From NCBI GenBank assembly GCA_945905915.1, contig CAMDQL010000028.1:1-19519 (forward strand): a DNA stretch of 19,519 nucleotides. Direction: 5' to 3'. Shown here one piece after another: positions 5,922 to 11,251 of this stretch. Positions within the stretch are counted from its first letter, which is position 1. Each line of letters starts with the position of its first letter. A model generated the notes under the pieces. It was given only the letters and a program-made list of their open reading frames with translations, was not told the origin of the DNA and ran no database searches. This DNA comes from Flavobacterium psychrophilum (GTDB lineage: Bacteria; Bacteroidota; Bacteroidia; Flavobacteriales; Flavobacteriaceae). The position numbers and the translations under genes were made by a program.

Positions 5922-5929
5922 CAAAGATA
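5922..5929 (-). promoter_or_regulatory. -7 promoter box for recJ
   Basis: On the minus strand this reads TATCTTTG, a full TAnnTTTG match, about 57 nt upstream of the recJ ATG. The left arm of the inverted repeat around the GIY-YIG gene starts 16 nt further upstream (5946), so the cassette abuts or replaces the -33 region of this promoter. No TTTG is seen at the usual -33 spacing. Confidence 0.5.
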
Positions 5930-5945
5930 TAAAAAAAATTCTTAG

Positions 5946-5977
5946 TTGTCATTTCGACGTAAGGAGAAATCACATAA
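5946..5977 (+). repeat. Left arm of 32-bp perfect inverted repeat flanking the GIY-YIG gene
   Basis: The arm begins TTGTC and ends CACATAA; its reverse complement occurs without mismatch at 6327-6358. It contains a 20-nt hairpin at 5951-5970: ATTTC pairs with GAAAT, then tandem G.A/A.G mismatches, a C-G pair and a GTAA (GNRA-type) loop. It starts 11 nt after the GIY-YIG stop codon. Weaker similarity between the two sides continues about 10 nt further out (AAATT..TTAG), with small gaps. From memory, close variants (CATTTCGAC...GGAGAAATC) are scattered repeats in many Bacteroidota genomes. Confidence 0.9.
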
Positions 5978-5988
5978 TTTTTTAAAAA

Positions 5989-6315
5989 TTATTTCTTAAA
6001 ATGATGATTTAAAAATTCGAAATCAGGATTCATACTTTTTATTAGATCCATCTTCTTTTCTCGTCTCCATTTTTTTATTTCTTTTTCTCTTGCAATTGCT
6101 TCTTCCACCCAAACGAATTTTTCATAATAAACCAAAAACTCTAAATTATACTTTGAAGCAAAAGTTTTATTACCTAATTCTAAATTTTCTATGTGTTGAC
6201 TTAATCGTTCTTTTAAATTATTGGTCATTCCAATATAATATGTGGAACGATATTTATTGGTAATTATGTAAACATAATAGGAATGAAAACCTGTTTGTGG
6301 ATTAAATTCATTCAT
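5989..6315 (-). CDS. GIY-YIG family endonuclease (URI domain), inside an inverted-repeat cassette
   Basis: Single-domain protein of 108 aa. The GIY half-motif is YYVYIITN (13-20) and the YIG half-motif is YYIGMTNNLKERLSQH (26-41), with the conserved Arg (R37) and His (H41). The helix EEAIAREKEIKKWRREKK (71-88) carries the likely catalytic Glu (E77) and a basic, possibly DNA-binding, tail. The domain cuts one DNA strand per active site with a metal ion; the target is unknown. The family is the small stand-alone COG2827/YhbQ-like group, often multicopy in Bacteroidota. The start is the ATG at 6315; 11 nt upstream of it and 11 nt after the stop lie the two arms of a perfect 32-bp inverted repeat, so gene and repeats form a 413-bp unit. 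It sits between rsmI and recJ on their strand. The nuclease fold is well supported; mobility is inference. Confidence 0.92.
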   Translation of the reverse strand: MNEFNPQTGFHSYYVYIITNKYRSTYYIGMTNNLKERLSQHIENLELGNKTFASKYNLEFLVYYEKFVWVEEAIAREKEIKKWRREKKMDLIKSMNPDFEFLNHHFKK

Positions 6316-6326
6316 GCTTTTTAACT

Positions 6327-6358
6327 TTATGTGATTTCTCCTTACGTCGAAATGACAA
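6327..6358 (-). repeat. Right arm of 32-bp perfect inverted repeat flanking the GIY-YIG gene
   Basis: Exact reverse complement of 5946-5977, beginning TTATGTGATTT and ending ATGACAA on the plus strand. The internal 20-nt hairpin is at 6334-6353. The arm ends 11 nt before the GIY-YIG ATG, so it lies in the 5' leader of that gene. A transcript covering the cassette could pair the two arms and enclose the whole coding region in a stem. Confidence 0.9.
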
Positions 6359-6430
6359 ACTAAATTTTAACTTATGATAAATTATCACTACTAAATAAAT
6401 AACTGCTAACTAAAAACTAATGACTGAACA
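6359..6430. repeat. Word-like tract between the GIY-YIG cassette and rsmI
   Basis: The segment after the right arm contains ACTGCTAACT, AAAAACTAAT and GACTGAACACT, near-repeats of an AACT(A/G)A word that ends directly at the rsmI stop codon (6431-6433). It is part of the general pattern of degenerate intergenic tracts. No clear hairpin with a U-tract is seen, so an rsmI terminator cannot be assigned here. Confidence 0.35.
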
Positions 6431-8806: not shown

Positions 8807-11251
8807 TTGAATCTCAATATCAACCATATTATTTCGTTTTGCAAAGGCGTTTTTCGCGGAAATTCGACTGAATTTACCGTAAGTCATATTTCGATTGATA
8901 GCCGTTCGTTGCAAAATGGAAATAACACCTTGTTTTTTGCTATAAAAGGACAAAATCATGATGCACATTTGTATTTGGAAGAGTTGATTGCAAAAGGTGT
9001 TCGTTATTTTGTGGTCGAATCTATTCCGGAACATTTATCCGAAAAAGCAAATTTCATTATCGTTGAAAATTCGTTGAAAGCATTACAACAAACTGCGATT
9101 GGTTATCGAAAACAATTTGATTTTCCGTTTGTGGGAATAACGGGAAGTAACGGAAAAACGATCGTGAAAGAATGGTTGAATTTCTTGTTGAGTCCGAATC
9201 ATTTGATTGTTCGAAATCCGAAAAGTTATAATTCACAAGTGGGTGTTGCTTTATCTATATTAGGAATAGAAGGTAATTATGATTTAGGCATTTTTGAGGC
9301 CGGAATTTCGCTGCCCAATGAAATGTTGCATTTAGAAAATATTATTCAACCTAAGTATGGTATTTTAACAACTATTGGTTCGGCACATGATGAAGGATTT
9401 CCAAATCGGGATGCTAAAATCAAAGAAAAAATTAAACTTTTCGAAAATTGTACGGATATTTTCTTGGAAAAGAATGCTGAAATTGAAACTTTACTTTCAG
9501 AAAATAGTAACAAACACACTTGGAGTTTTTCGGATGAAAATGCGCAACTTTTTGTTTCGAAGAAAAGTGAAAATGACAAAACCAAATTAACCTTTAAAAA
9601 CAAAGACAATTCCTTTAGTGTAAATATTCCGTTTACTGATGAAAATTCGATTGAAAATGTGATTACTTGCGTAAATTTCATGCTTTTTTTAGGCGAAGAA
9701 ATTGCCTTTATACAAAATCTAGTTGCCGAGTTATACCCAGTTGAATTAAGACTTCAAGCTAAAAAAGGCATCAATAATTGTATGGTAATTGATGATAGTT
9801 ATTCGGTCGATTATCCATCATTAAAAATTGCATTGGATTTCTTAGAACAGCAAAAATTACATAATAAAAAAACGATTATTTTATCGGATATTTTTTCAGA
9901 TGGAATAGTGATTGAAACACTTTATGATCAAGTAAAACAATTGCTTTCCAAAAATAAAATTGAGCGAATTATTACCATTGGCGAAACCATAGGAAAACAA
10001 CTTAACGATTTGCCTAATGTGATTTCGTTTGCTACAACTCAAGAATTTTTACAACAATTTAATCTTCAATCGTTTCAAAATGAAACTATTCTAGTTAAAG
10101 GTGCGCGCGGATTTAATTTTCATGAAATTGTGGTGGTGTTAGAAGAAAAAAATCACGAAACCATATTAGAAATCAATCTCGACGCGATTAGTCACAACTT
10201 GAATTTCTATAAATCCAAATTAAAACCAGAAACTAAAATTATGGTTATGGTTAAAGCGTTTGGTTATGGAAATGGTGGTTATGAAATTGCAAAATTGCTA
10301 GAACATCATAAAGTAGATTATTTAGGTGTGGCTTTTGCCGATGAAGGAATCGAATTGCGAAAAGCTGGAATTTCGACTCCAATTATGGTTTTAAATCCAG
10401 AAAATAGTAGTTTTAGAGCGATGATTGCTTATAATTTAGAACCCGAAATTTATTCGATTACAGGTTTACAAGACTTTTTAAAAATAGCACAAGAACAAAA
10501 TATCTCAAATTATCCGATTCATATTAAATTAGATACCGGAATGCATCGATTAGGATTTGAAGCGCATTTAATTTCCGAATTGTGTTCATTACTAAAAAAC
10601 AACAATTTTGTTAAGGTGAAAAGTGTGTTTTCGCATTTAGCGGCAAGTGATGATTTGCAATTTGATGATTTTACGCAACTGCAATTTCAACGATTTGATG
10701 CGATGTTTGAAGAAATAGAAAAAATAGTAGCTTCAAAACCAATTCGTCATATTTTAAATACTTCAGGGATTTTCAATTATGCCGATAAGCAAATGGGAAT
10801 GGTACGATTAGGGATTGGTTTATATGGCATTGGAAATTCGGAACAAGAATTACAAAGCTTGGAAAATGTAAGCACTTTAAAAACAATCATTTCACAAATT
10901 AGAGCCGTTTTACCCGAAGAAAGCATTGGTTATAGCCGAAAATTTCGAGTGTCAGAAAAAATAAAAGTGGCCACTATTCCTGTTGGCTATGCCGATGGCA
11001 TCAGAAGAGCTTGGGGTAATGAAAAAGGTTTTGTAACCATCAATAATCAAAAAGCAACTATTTTGGGTTCAATTTGTATGGACATGATGATGGTTGATGT
11101 TACTAAAATTAATTGCTCTGAAGGCGATGAAGTTATCGTTTTTGGTACAAATCCAAAAATTACTGAAATTGCAACTGCAACTGGAACTATTTCTTATGAA
11201 ATTTTAACGGGTATTTCACAACGAGTAAAACGAATTTTCTATAAAAATTAA
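8807..11251 (+). CDS. Bifunctional MurF (UDP-MurNAc-tripeptide:D-Ala-D-Ala ligase) / alanine racemase
   Basis: Natural fusion of 814 aa. The N-terminal half (~1-445) is a Mur ligase with ATP loop GITGSNGKT (110-118), the EAGIS block, TIGSAHDEGF and a following KEKIKLF that should carry the structural Lys. The C-terminal half (~450-814) is a PLP-dependent alanine racemase with VKAFGYGNG (PLP Lys K483), LDTGMHRLGF, GYSRKF (catalytic Tyr Y709), PVGYADG and GSICMDMMMVDV. It should make D-Ala and add D-Ala-D-Ala to UDP-MurNAc-tripeptide in the cytoplasm. The fusion is well known in Bacteroidota. The start is forced to be non-ATG: an in-frame TAA lies at 8777-8779 and the first in-frame ATG is near residue 175, so TTG at 8807, 1 nt after the tdk stop, is best. 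Both active sites look intact. Confidence 0.95.
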   Translation: MNLNINHIISFCKGVFRGNSTEFTVSHISIDSRSLQNGNNTLFFAIKGQNHDAHLYLEELIAKGVRYFVVESIPEHLSEKANFIIVENSLKALQQTAIGYRKQFDFPFVGITGSNGKTIVKEWLNFLLSPNHLIVRNPKSYNSQVGVALSILGIEGNYDLGIFEAGISLPNEMLHLENIIQPKYGILTTIGSAHDEGFPNRDAKIKEKIKLFENCTDIFLEKNAEIETLLSENSNKHTWSFSDENAQLFVSKKSENDKTKLTFKNKDNSFSVNIPFTDENSIENVITCVNFMLFLGEEIAFIQNLVAELYPVELRLQAKKGINNCMVIDDSYSVDYPSLKIALDFLEQQKLHNKKTIILSDIFSDGIVIETLYDQVKQLLSKNKIERIITIGETIGKQLNDLPNVISFATTQEFLQQFNLQSFQNETILVKGARGFNFHEIVVVLEEKNHETILEINLDAISHNLNFYKSKLKPETKIMVMVKAFGYGNGGYEIAKLLEHHKVDYLGVAFADEGIELRKAGISTPIMVLNPENSSFRAMIAYNLEPEIYSITGLQDFLKIAQEQNISNYPIHIKLDTGMHRLGFEAHLISELCSLLKNNNFVKVKSVFSHLAASDDLQFDDFTQLQFQRFDAMFEEIEKIVASKPIRHILNTSGIFNYADKQMGMVRLGIGLYGIGNSEQELQSLENVSTLKTIISQIRAVLPEESIGYSRKFRVSEKIKVATIPVGYADGIRRAWGNEKGFVTINNQKATILGSICMDMMMVDVTKINCSEGDEVIVFGTNPKITEIATATGTISYEILTGISQRVKRIFYKN

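Follow-up and report, generated by a model that had tools for sequence, protein, structure and literature searches.

The whole stretch of Flavobacterium psychrophilum DNA that was analysed (the window, 19,519 nucleotides) carries between rsmI and recJ a small GIY-YIG nuclease gene enclosed by two inverted copies of one hairpin, arranged as follows:

5946–5977, forward strand: arm 1, a hairpin repeat 3' of the GIY-YIG gene and the perfect reverse complement of arm 2
Within arm 1, forward strand: tag TGTC (5947–5950), stem ATTTC (5951–5955), loop (5956–5965), stem GAAAT (5966–5970) and tail CACA (5971–5974)
5989–6315, reverse strand: GIY-YIG nuclease gene, 108 aa (PF01541, E = 2.1e-17)
6327–6358, reverse strand: arm 2, the same hairpin 5' of the gene, with its tag TGTC at 6357–6354
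5929–6375, no strand assigned: possible extent of the whole cassette, marked by weaker inverted similarity around both arms

The preliminary description, which proposed that the nuclease spreads these hairpins, was exact as to this arrangement. The 32-nt arms are perfect reverse complements, each lying exactly 11 nt from the GIY-YIG ORF, and the tags of both point outward. A chance origin is ruled out, since only about 3e-11 perfect 32-bp inverted repeats no more than 1 kb apart are expected in the window from its base composition. The weaker inverted similarity pairs 5929–5986 with 6318–6375 (58 nt, 79% complementary). On folding, the arm gives an imperfect palindrome (TGT-C-ATTTC / GAAAT-C-ACA) that contains one C·C mismatch and has a 5-bp stem (8 bp with the mismatch), a 10-nt loop and the CACA tail. 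The window has no Rfam match at gathering scores, and a scan of its forward strand for TGTCATT(T/C)CGA yielded no further copies of the TGTCAT(T/C)(T/C)CGA type in the 19.5 kb; the whole-genome repeat counts given below are taken from the genomes of relatives. Elsewhere in the window, positions 8807–11251 form a single 814-aa ORF, which resembles what we take to be a MurF ligase fused to an alanine racemase.

The PF01541 match spans residues 13–88 of the 108-aa protein, which is thus little beyond a catalytic domain. Y16, Y27, G29, R37, E77 and N96 are invariant in an alignment of 41 relatives, and the window protein retains the catalytic-type Tyr, Arg, Glu and Asn residues of an active GIY-YIG nuclease, the role of which is presumably that known from work on UvrC and I-TevI. 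The AlphaFold model (mean pLDDT 90.1) has as its top structural match, a weak one, the UPF0213 protein BH0048 (1zg2, E = 1.1e-3), followed by Slx1, a nuclease of branched DNA, at E = 0.05 and weaker. By sequence, the protein matches 1ywl (E = 0.0013); among PHROG families it comes closest to a GIY-YIG homing endonuclease (E = 5.5e-6), and the PADLOC matches are all weak, the best of them again being a homing endonuclease (E = 5e-4).

Relatives of the gene are regularly accompanied by similar hairpins. A scan of species genomes gave 350 stretches encoding a relative, the best 80 of which were kept. An inverted repeat in the flanks of 46 of these best loci scores higher than any shuffled control (maximum 13.5); among its lineage forms are TGTCATTTCGAC...GGAGAAATCACA for Flavobacterium and TGTCATTTCGAACGAG...GAGGAGAAATCTTCT for Mucilaginibacter. 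A flank detector, designed after these repeats had been seen, required a (T/C)GTCAT tag, a perfect stem of at least 5, outward orientation of the tag and a distance of at most 250 nt from the gene. The loci submitted to it were picked by protein similarity and not by repeats (165 loci, reduced to 148 distinct ORFs, 145 of them far enough from a contig end to be testable). Tag-outward hairpins were found on both sides of 74 of the 145 GIY-YIG genes, on one side of 40 and on neither side of 31, compared to 8, 99 and 619, respectively, of 726 control ORFs from the same loci (odds ratio for both sides 94, p = 1e-56). A looser detector found both sides occupied in 83/145 GIY-YIG genes versus 9/645 other ORFs. 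The 31 hairpin-free relatives, which include all six Arenibacter loci and all eight of the diverged members recovered by profile search (L158–L165), count against a role of the nuclease as mobiliser of the repeats. On a tree of the 148 members (99 columns kept), where few branches are resolved, the label "no hairpin" changes 18 times versus 28.6 in shuffles. In the 15 loci compared, the arms showed no significant similarity to the remaining hairpins of their own 12-kb locus (p = 0.20). A further family of tagged palindromes, TGTCATTGCGAGGTAC.AAGCAATCT, was noticed in three of the loci (L018, L032, and L071).

The hairpins are conserved as paired structures. With a search pattern leaving two stem positions per side free between two letters, 293 of 298 hairpins were paired at these positions, while 1000 shuffles in which the partners were redealt gave a mean of 149.5 and a maximum of 168. 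The TTC/GAA of the window is swapped for TCC/GGA, CTC/GAG, or CCC/GGG in other hairpins, so that it is the pairing rather than the letters that is kept. The two positions next to the tag on its outer side are mostly T (68% and 61% of 317 hairpins).

As the preliminary description had expected, the arm is not confined to the window locus but dispersed in the genomes of relatives. Of 121 Flavobacterium genomes, 97 contain matches to the pattern TGTCATTYCGAN{2,30}GRAATC, with a maximum of 197 copies in one genome, compared to 0 to 2 per genome for the reversed-pattern control. Neighbouring copies tend to have their tags outward: in the loci of relatives, 118 of 235 neighbours no more than 120 nt apart stand in tag-outward order, and among the copies listed for the Draconibacterium, Thermonema, and Reichenbachiella genomes the same holds for 14/14, 15/19, and 7/7 neighbours within 150 nt, respectively. 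All 36 listed tag-outward pairs of these three genomes join arms of unequal length. Shuffling produced the same result 68, 45, and 805 times in 2000, respectively, so that unequal arms have nominal support in two of the three genomes. Regularly spaced tag-outward pairs, solitary copies, and gene-flanking copies are all present, which is the REPIN-like footprint that had been foreseen.

The gene-bearing and gene-less forms can be compared most closely in Draconibacterium. The two arms at the ends of its cassette L057 are of different types, the exact strings of which recur elsewhere in the genome, and the same two types, with two and one letters changed, bound a gene-less 77-bp pair (G029:C1:2524965-2525041). 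Together they look as would be expected of an autonomous element and its non-autonomous derivative. When the arm strings of cassettes were compared with their own genomes in four cases, identical copies were found elsewhere in Draconibacterium and Thermonema; the L058 arm had no exact match elsewhere in its genome, and the perfect score of L074, being the copy itself, was not counted. Three Flavobacterium loci (L092, L093, and L094) also hold paired copies of about 100 bp with a similar spacer (..TCGACAAAGATTG..), which is a MITE-like family beyond bare hairpins.

The number of repeats varies with the presence of the gene, in agreement with what had been predicted from the window. Among the 121 Flavobacterium genomes, the median is 14 repeats in the 68 with a close gene (E below 1e-20; one genome with none), 2 in the 31 with a weaker match (nine with none), and 0 in the 22 with no match (14 with none). 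Repeats are also correlated with genome size (rho 0.64); with size removed, the rank correlation with repeats is 0.40 for gene count and 0.60 for the best match, both uncorrected for kinship. In a phylum sample of 296 Bacteroidota genomes, at least two repeats are present in 93 of 172 genomes with the gene versus 20 of 124 without it (p = 1e-11, likewise uncorrected for kinship). In both samples, therefore, the number of repeats and the GIY-YIG family are not independent of each other.

The link between gene and repeats that had been proposed thus stands as an association but not as a strict one, given that there are genes without arms and repeat-rich genomes without the gene, and the latter also count against mobilisation by the nuclease. 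Thirteen of the 296 Bacteroidota genomes hold at least five repeats and no gene match at 1e-5. A profile search of 15 repeat-bearing exceptions (these 13 plus G130 and G134 of the genus sample) recovered the gene in three, including G134, where weak matches were already known. Among the exceptions whose copies were listed, four genomes (G243, G293, G309, and G344, the last with 15 of its 18 copies listed) show no tag-outward pair, which fits relics. On the other hand, G130, G232, and G370 have tag-outward pairs while lacking the gene by search, and these pairs are beyond a nuclease-driven model unless the gene has been lost or help has come from elsewhere.

Comparison of the rsmI–recJ interval among relatives looks like gain, loss, and relocation rather than a fixed gene. 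The nearest species by RsmI (95–96%; L166) has no cassette there. In L167 (G113; RsmI 94%), the arms are present, the right one altered, and enclose a different small ORF together with a 3' remnant of the GIY-YIG gene, which can be read as cargo exchange or decay inside the arms. One right-arm-like sequence remains in L172 and L176, degenerate in the latter. A full cassette stands just upstream of recJ in L001 and L003, the former from F. celericrescens, with a nuclease 95% identical to that of the window and an RsmI 88–89% identical. In five loci (L007, L011, L083, L085, and L088, with L007 and L083 from the same genome), the gene is just downstream of recJ, and many other relatives' loci have no recJ nearby. 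The L007 record is titled Bifidobacterium breve in a genome grouped with Flavobacterium (G056), a label that looks wrong. Relatives do not, therefore, all carry the gene at this site without repeats, an outcome that the preliminary description had named as contrary to its proposal. None of the rsmI–recJ comparisons shows a clean insertion joint.

At two other sites, alleles with and without the gene were compared. In Azospirillum lipoferum, sufB and sufC are separated by 617 bp that hold the cassette together with its repeats, compared to gaps of 87 to 129 bp in three congeners, in which no such repeat was seen by eye. At gltA–lpxB of Sinorhizobium, strain Ak57 holds a gene array, and strains K101 and C101, without the gene, hold a single hybrid palindrome, whose left half corresponds to one REP and whose right half corresponds to the other (L196 and L197 versus L119). 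As a general excision footprint such hybrids were rejected, because only 6 of the 121 Flavobacterium genomes have any double-tagged hybrid palindrome.

The statement that the window unit has no target duplication was confirmed, and no general target site duplication was found among 149 units. Direct repeats of at least 6 near the unit ends occur in 10 of them, more than in any of the 50 shuffles (mean 1.8%, maximum 4.7%), and a minority may therefore have a target duplication. In six stretches of about 25 kb from Sinorhizobium meliloti pSymB, the core of the CGTC repeat searched for was absent from all, and the two indel places of at least 25 nt both concern other sequences. One observation from pSymB is a strain-specific insert of 181 bp (L210, L211, and L214 versus L206, L212, and L213) bearing another palindrome (CCCCTCCCCAACCCCTCCCCACAGG...), unlike CGTC REPs.

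The system had been expected in Bacteroidota, and it proved wider than this phylum: relatives in Alphaproteobacteria and Neisseria stand with canonical CGTC REPs, and one cyanobacterial plasmid locus is arranged alike. REPs have been divided into those with a GTAG tag, associated with RAYT transposases, and those with a CGTC tag, for which no dedicated transposase is known according to excerpts of Di Nocera 2013 (PMC3733652); the CGTC superfamily includes dRS3 of Neisseria as well as RPE-4 and RPE-6 of Rickettsia, and in Table 1 of that paper no transposase gene is listed as associated with CGTC repeats. A plasmid collection gave 17 and 42 records with relatives, some of them chromosome-sized. 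Among 17 of its loci, whose flanks were partly read by eye and which include two sets of close kin (L120/L127 and L122/L205), tagged hairpins in any orientation stand on both sides in 12, downstream only in three (L122, L201, and L205), and on no side in two (L200 and L202). Two "plasmid" records, of 4.9 Mb (L126, Aeromonas) and 2.2 Mb (L198, N. gonorrhoeae), appear to be chromosomes.

CGTC repeats surround the relatives in Rhizobiaceae, Azospirillum, and Neisseria. The distance from the beginning of a canonical CGTC hairpin to the annotated gene start downstream of it is exactly 50 nt in L119, L120, L121, and L127 and about 80 nt in L125. The Neisseria gene lies inside an array of hairpins that fit ATTCCC(N8)GGGAAT, the pattern given for dRS3 (PMC3898611), and at the Planktothrix plasmid locus the gene is flanked on either side by TGTC pairs. 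As for the end motif of the superfamily (CGTC/TGTC/CCTC), the window has TGTC, nine loci have CGTC (L119, L120, L121, L125, L126, L127, L198, L199, and L203), and two have CCTC (L204 and L205). The complementary AT at the first two stem positions is found in the window (ATTTC/GAAAT) and in Rhizobiaceae (ATCCTCGGG/CCCGAGGAT), its presence outside the window being partly a matter of selection, since AT on either side was a requirement of the search patterns and detectors. In the proteobacterial loci the stem length is 8 or 9, and most ends read ATCCA. The repeats of Rhizobiaceae and Neisseria are CGTC REPs in the sense of PMC3733652, and those of Bacteroidota have in common with them the tag and the AT stem start, but not the stem length, loop, or tail. 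Among the open-access matches listed, no title or abstract links a GIY-YIG gene to REPs, and the excerpted text of a 2025 REP survey (PMC12306157) does not mention GIY-YIG, nuclease, or transposase.

Taken together, the cassette is probably a short mobile element of the REP/REPIN type whose GIY-YIG nuclease works on its ends and in trans. The gene lies between dispersed hairpins and its relatives likewise adjoin them, which makes the nuclease a good candidate for the missing enzyme that spreads such repeats. The observations in favour are the family-wide association with hairpins, the dispersed and paired copies, the conserved pairing, the co-variation of copy number with the gene, and the whole cassette of one species at a site that is empty in three congeners. 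To our knowledge, GIY-YIG enzymes are hydrolytic nucleases and not strand-transfer enzymes, which counts against this reading.

GIY-YIG nucleases are classic homing enzymes, and the main rival, an unlikely one, is that the gene is a selfish homing endonuclease targeting pre-existing repeat pairs that something else has spread: it would cut between or in the hairpins and be copied in by repair. The PHROG match speaks for this, the gene does lie between two complete repeat pairs in L091, L092, L097, L099, and L199, and the gene-less Sinorhizobium strains K101 and C101 keep a single hybrid palindrome at gltA–lpxB. Homing alone, however, leaves unexplained both why copy number tracks the gene and how the A. 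lipoferum cassette came to stand, repeats included, at a site that is repeat-free in its congeners.

It is considerably less probable that a Y1 transposase of the IS200/RAYT type, or some other transposase or integrase, is what moves the repeats in trans, with the GIY-YIG gene as passenger cargo. Y1 genes are indeed present in 87 of the 121 Flavobacterium genomes, with up to eight IS200-like matches each, and one exception, G130, combines 16 repeats and eight Y1 matches with no GIY-YIG match; in Neisseria, a filamentous prophage integrates at dRS3, and its integrase has been proposed to recombine dRS3 copies (PMC3898611). However, in a sample of 30 Flavobacterium Y1 loci (L255–L284, the best one per genome; ORF found in 29), hairpins flank none of the 29 genes on both sides, one on one side, and 28 not at all, so that Y1/RAYT was rejected as the repeat partner for the genes examined, and five genomes (G040, G064, G088, G089, and G103) hold 14 to 74 repeats with no Y1 match. 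Finally, it is very improbable that the hairpins have no link to mobility and are ordinary intergenic terminators or insulators accumulating around small dispensable genes, which they could be if acting in RNA, as has been proposed for REPs (PMC3733652), since both flanks are occupied in only 3 of 270 control ORFs of 90–200 aa from the same loci and the cassettes of Draconibacterium and Thermonema have arms of the types that are dispersed elsewhere in their own genomes.

Under the preferred reading of a nuclease that mobilises the repeats, the two tag-outward hairpins (TGTC-AT...AT) would be the ends of the element, and the nuclease would act on its own ends and, in trans, on gene-less pairs and solitary copies. 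It might recognise the hairpin in single-stranded form during replication or transcription and nick at or near the tag, after which the freed element may be copied or joined elsewhere by host replication and repair. The working would be REP–RAYT-like, with a hydrolytic nuclease replacing the HUH/Y1 transposase. A broader proposition is that the single-domain GIY-YIG nuclease is the dedicated mobiliser of CGTC/TGTC REPs across Bacteroidota, Pseudomonadota, and Cyanobacteriota, dRS3 included, as a second, independently evolved system parallel to RAYTs, hydrolytic and with no known strand-transfer chemistry; its chances of being right or wrong appear evenly balanced. If nucleases do act in this way, a known nuclease fold would gain a new role as spreader of bacterial repeats, and a large share of the dispersed palindromes in several phyla would gain an origin. 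The association names a candidate enzyme, and a single purified protein with a single oligonucleotide would be enough to put the question to the test.

Among known systems, the single-domain GIY-YIG proteins of UPF0213 resemble the window protein in size and fold. Homing endonucleases of the I-TevI type share the GIY-YIG catalytic domain and a patchy distribution, while the window protein is little more than that domain, and neither an intron nor a single conserved target gene is seen here. CGTC REPs are similar in having a tag beside a stem starting with AT and in being dispersed palindromes, often in opposed pairs, and the Rhizobiaceae and Neisseria loci carry their canonical form beside the GIY-YIG gene. 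Unlike them (stem of 8–9 bp, loop of 4–5 nt, and a tail that is mostly CCA), the hairpins of Flavobacterium have a stem of 5 bp (8 bp if one mismatch is allowed), a loop that is longer, and CACA as their tail; and a GIY-YIG gene is associated here, while Table 1 of PMC3733652 pairs CGTC repeats with no transposase gene. The closest parallel in architecture is the REPIN–RAYT system (REPtron), with which the cassette has in common that a nuclease gene stands between inverted copies of a dispersed palindrome, which also occurs solitary and paired without the gene. It differs in that the enzyme is a PF01541 GIY-YIG nuclease and not an HUH/Y1 tyrosine transposase, that the tag is TGTC and not GTAG, and that none of the Y1 genes examined in the same genus has these hairpins on both sides. 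The best-supported reading is that small GIY-YIG nucleases partner TGTC/CGTC repeats as RAYTs partner GTAG repeats.
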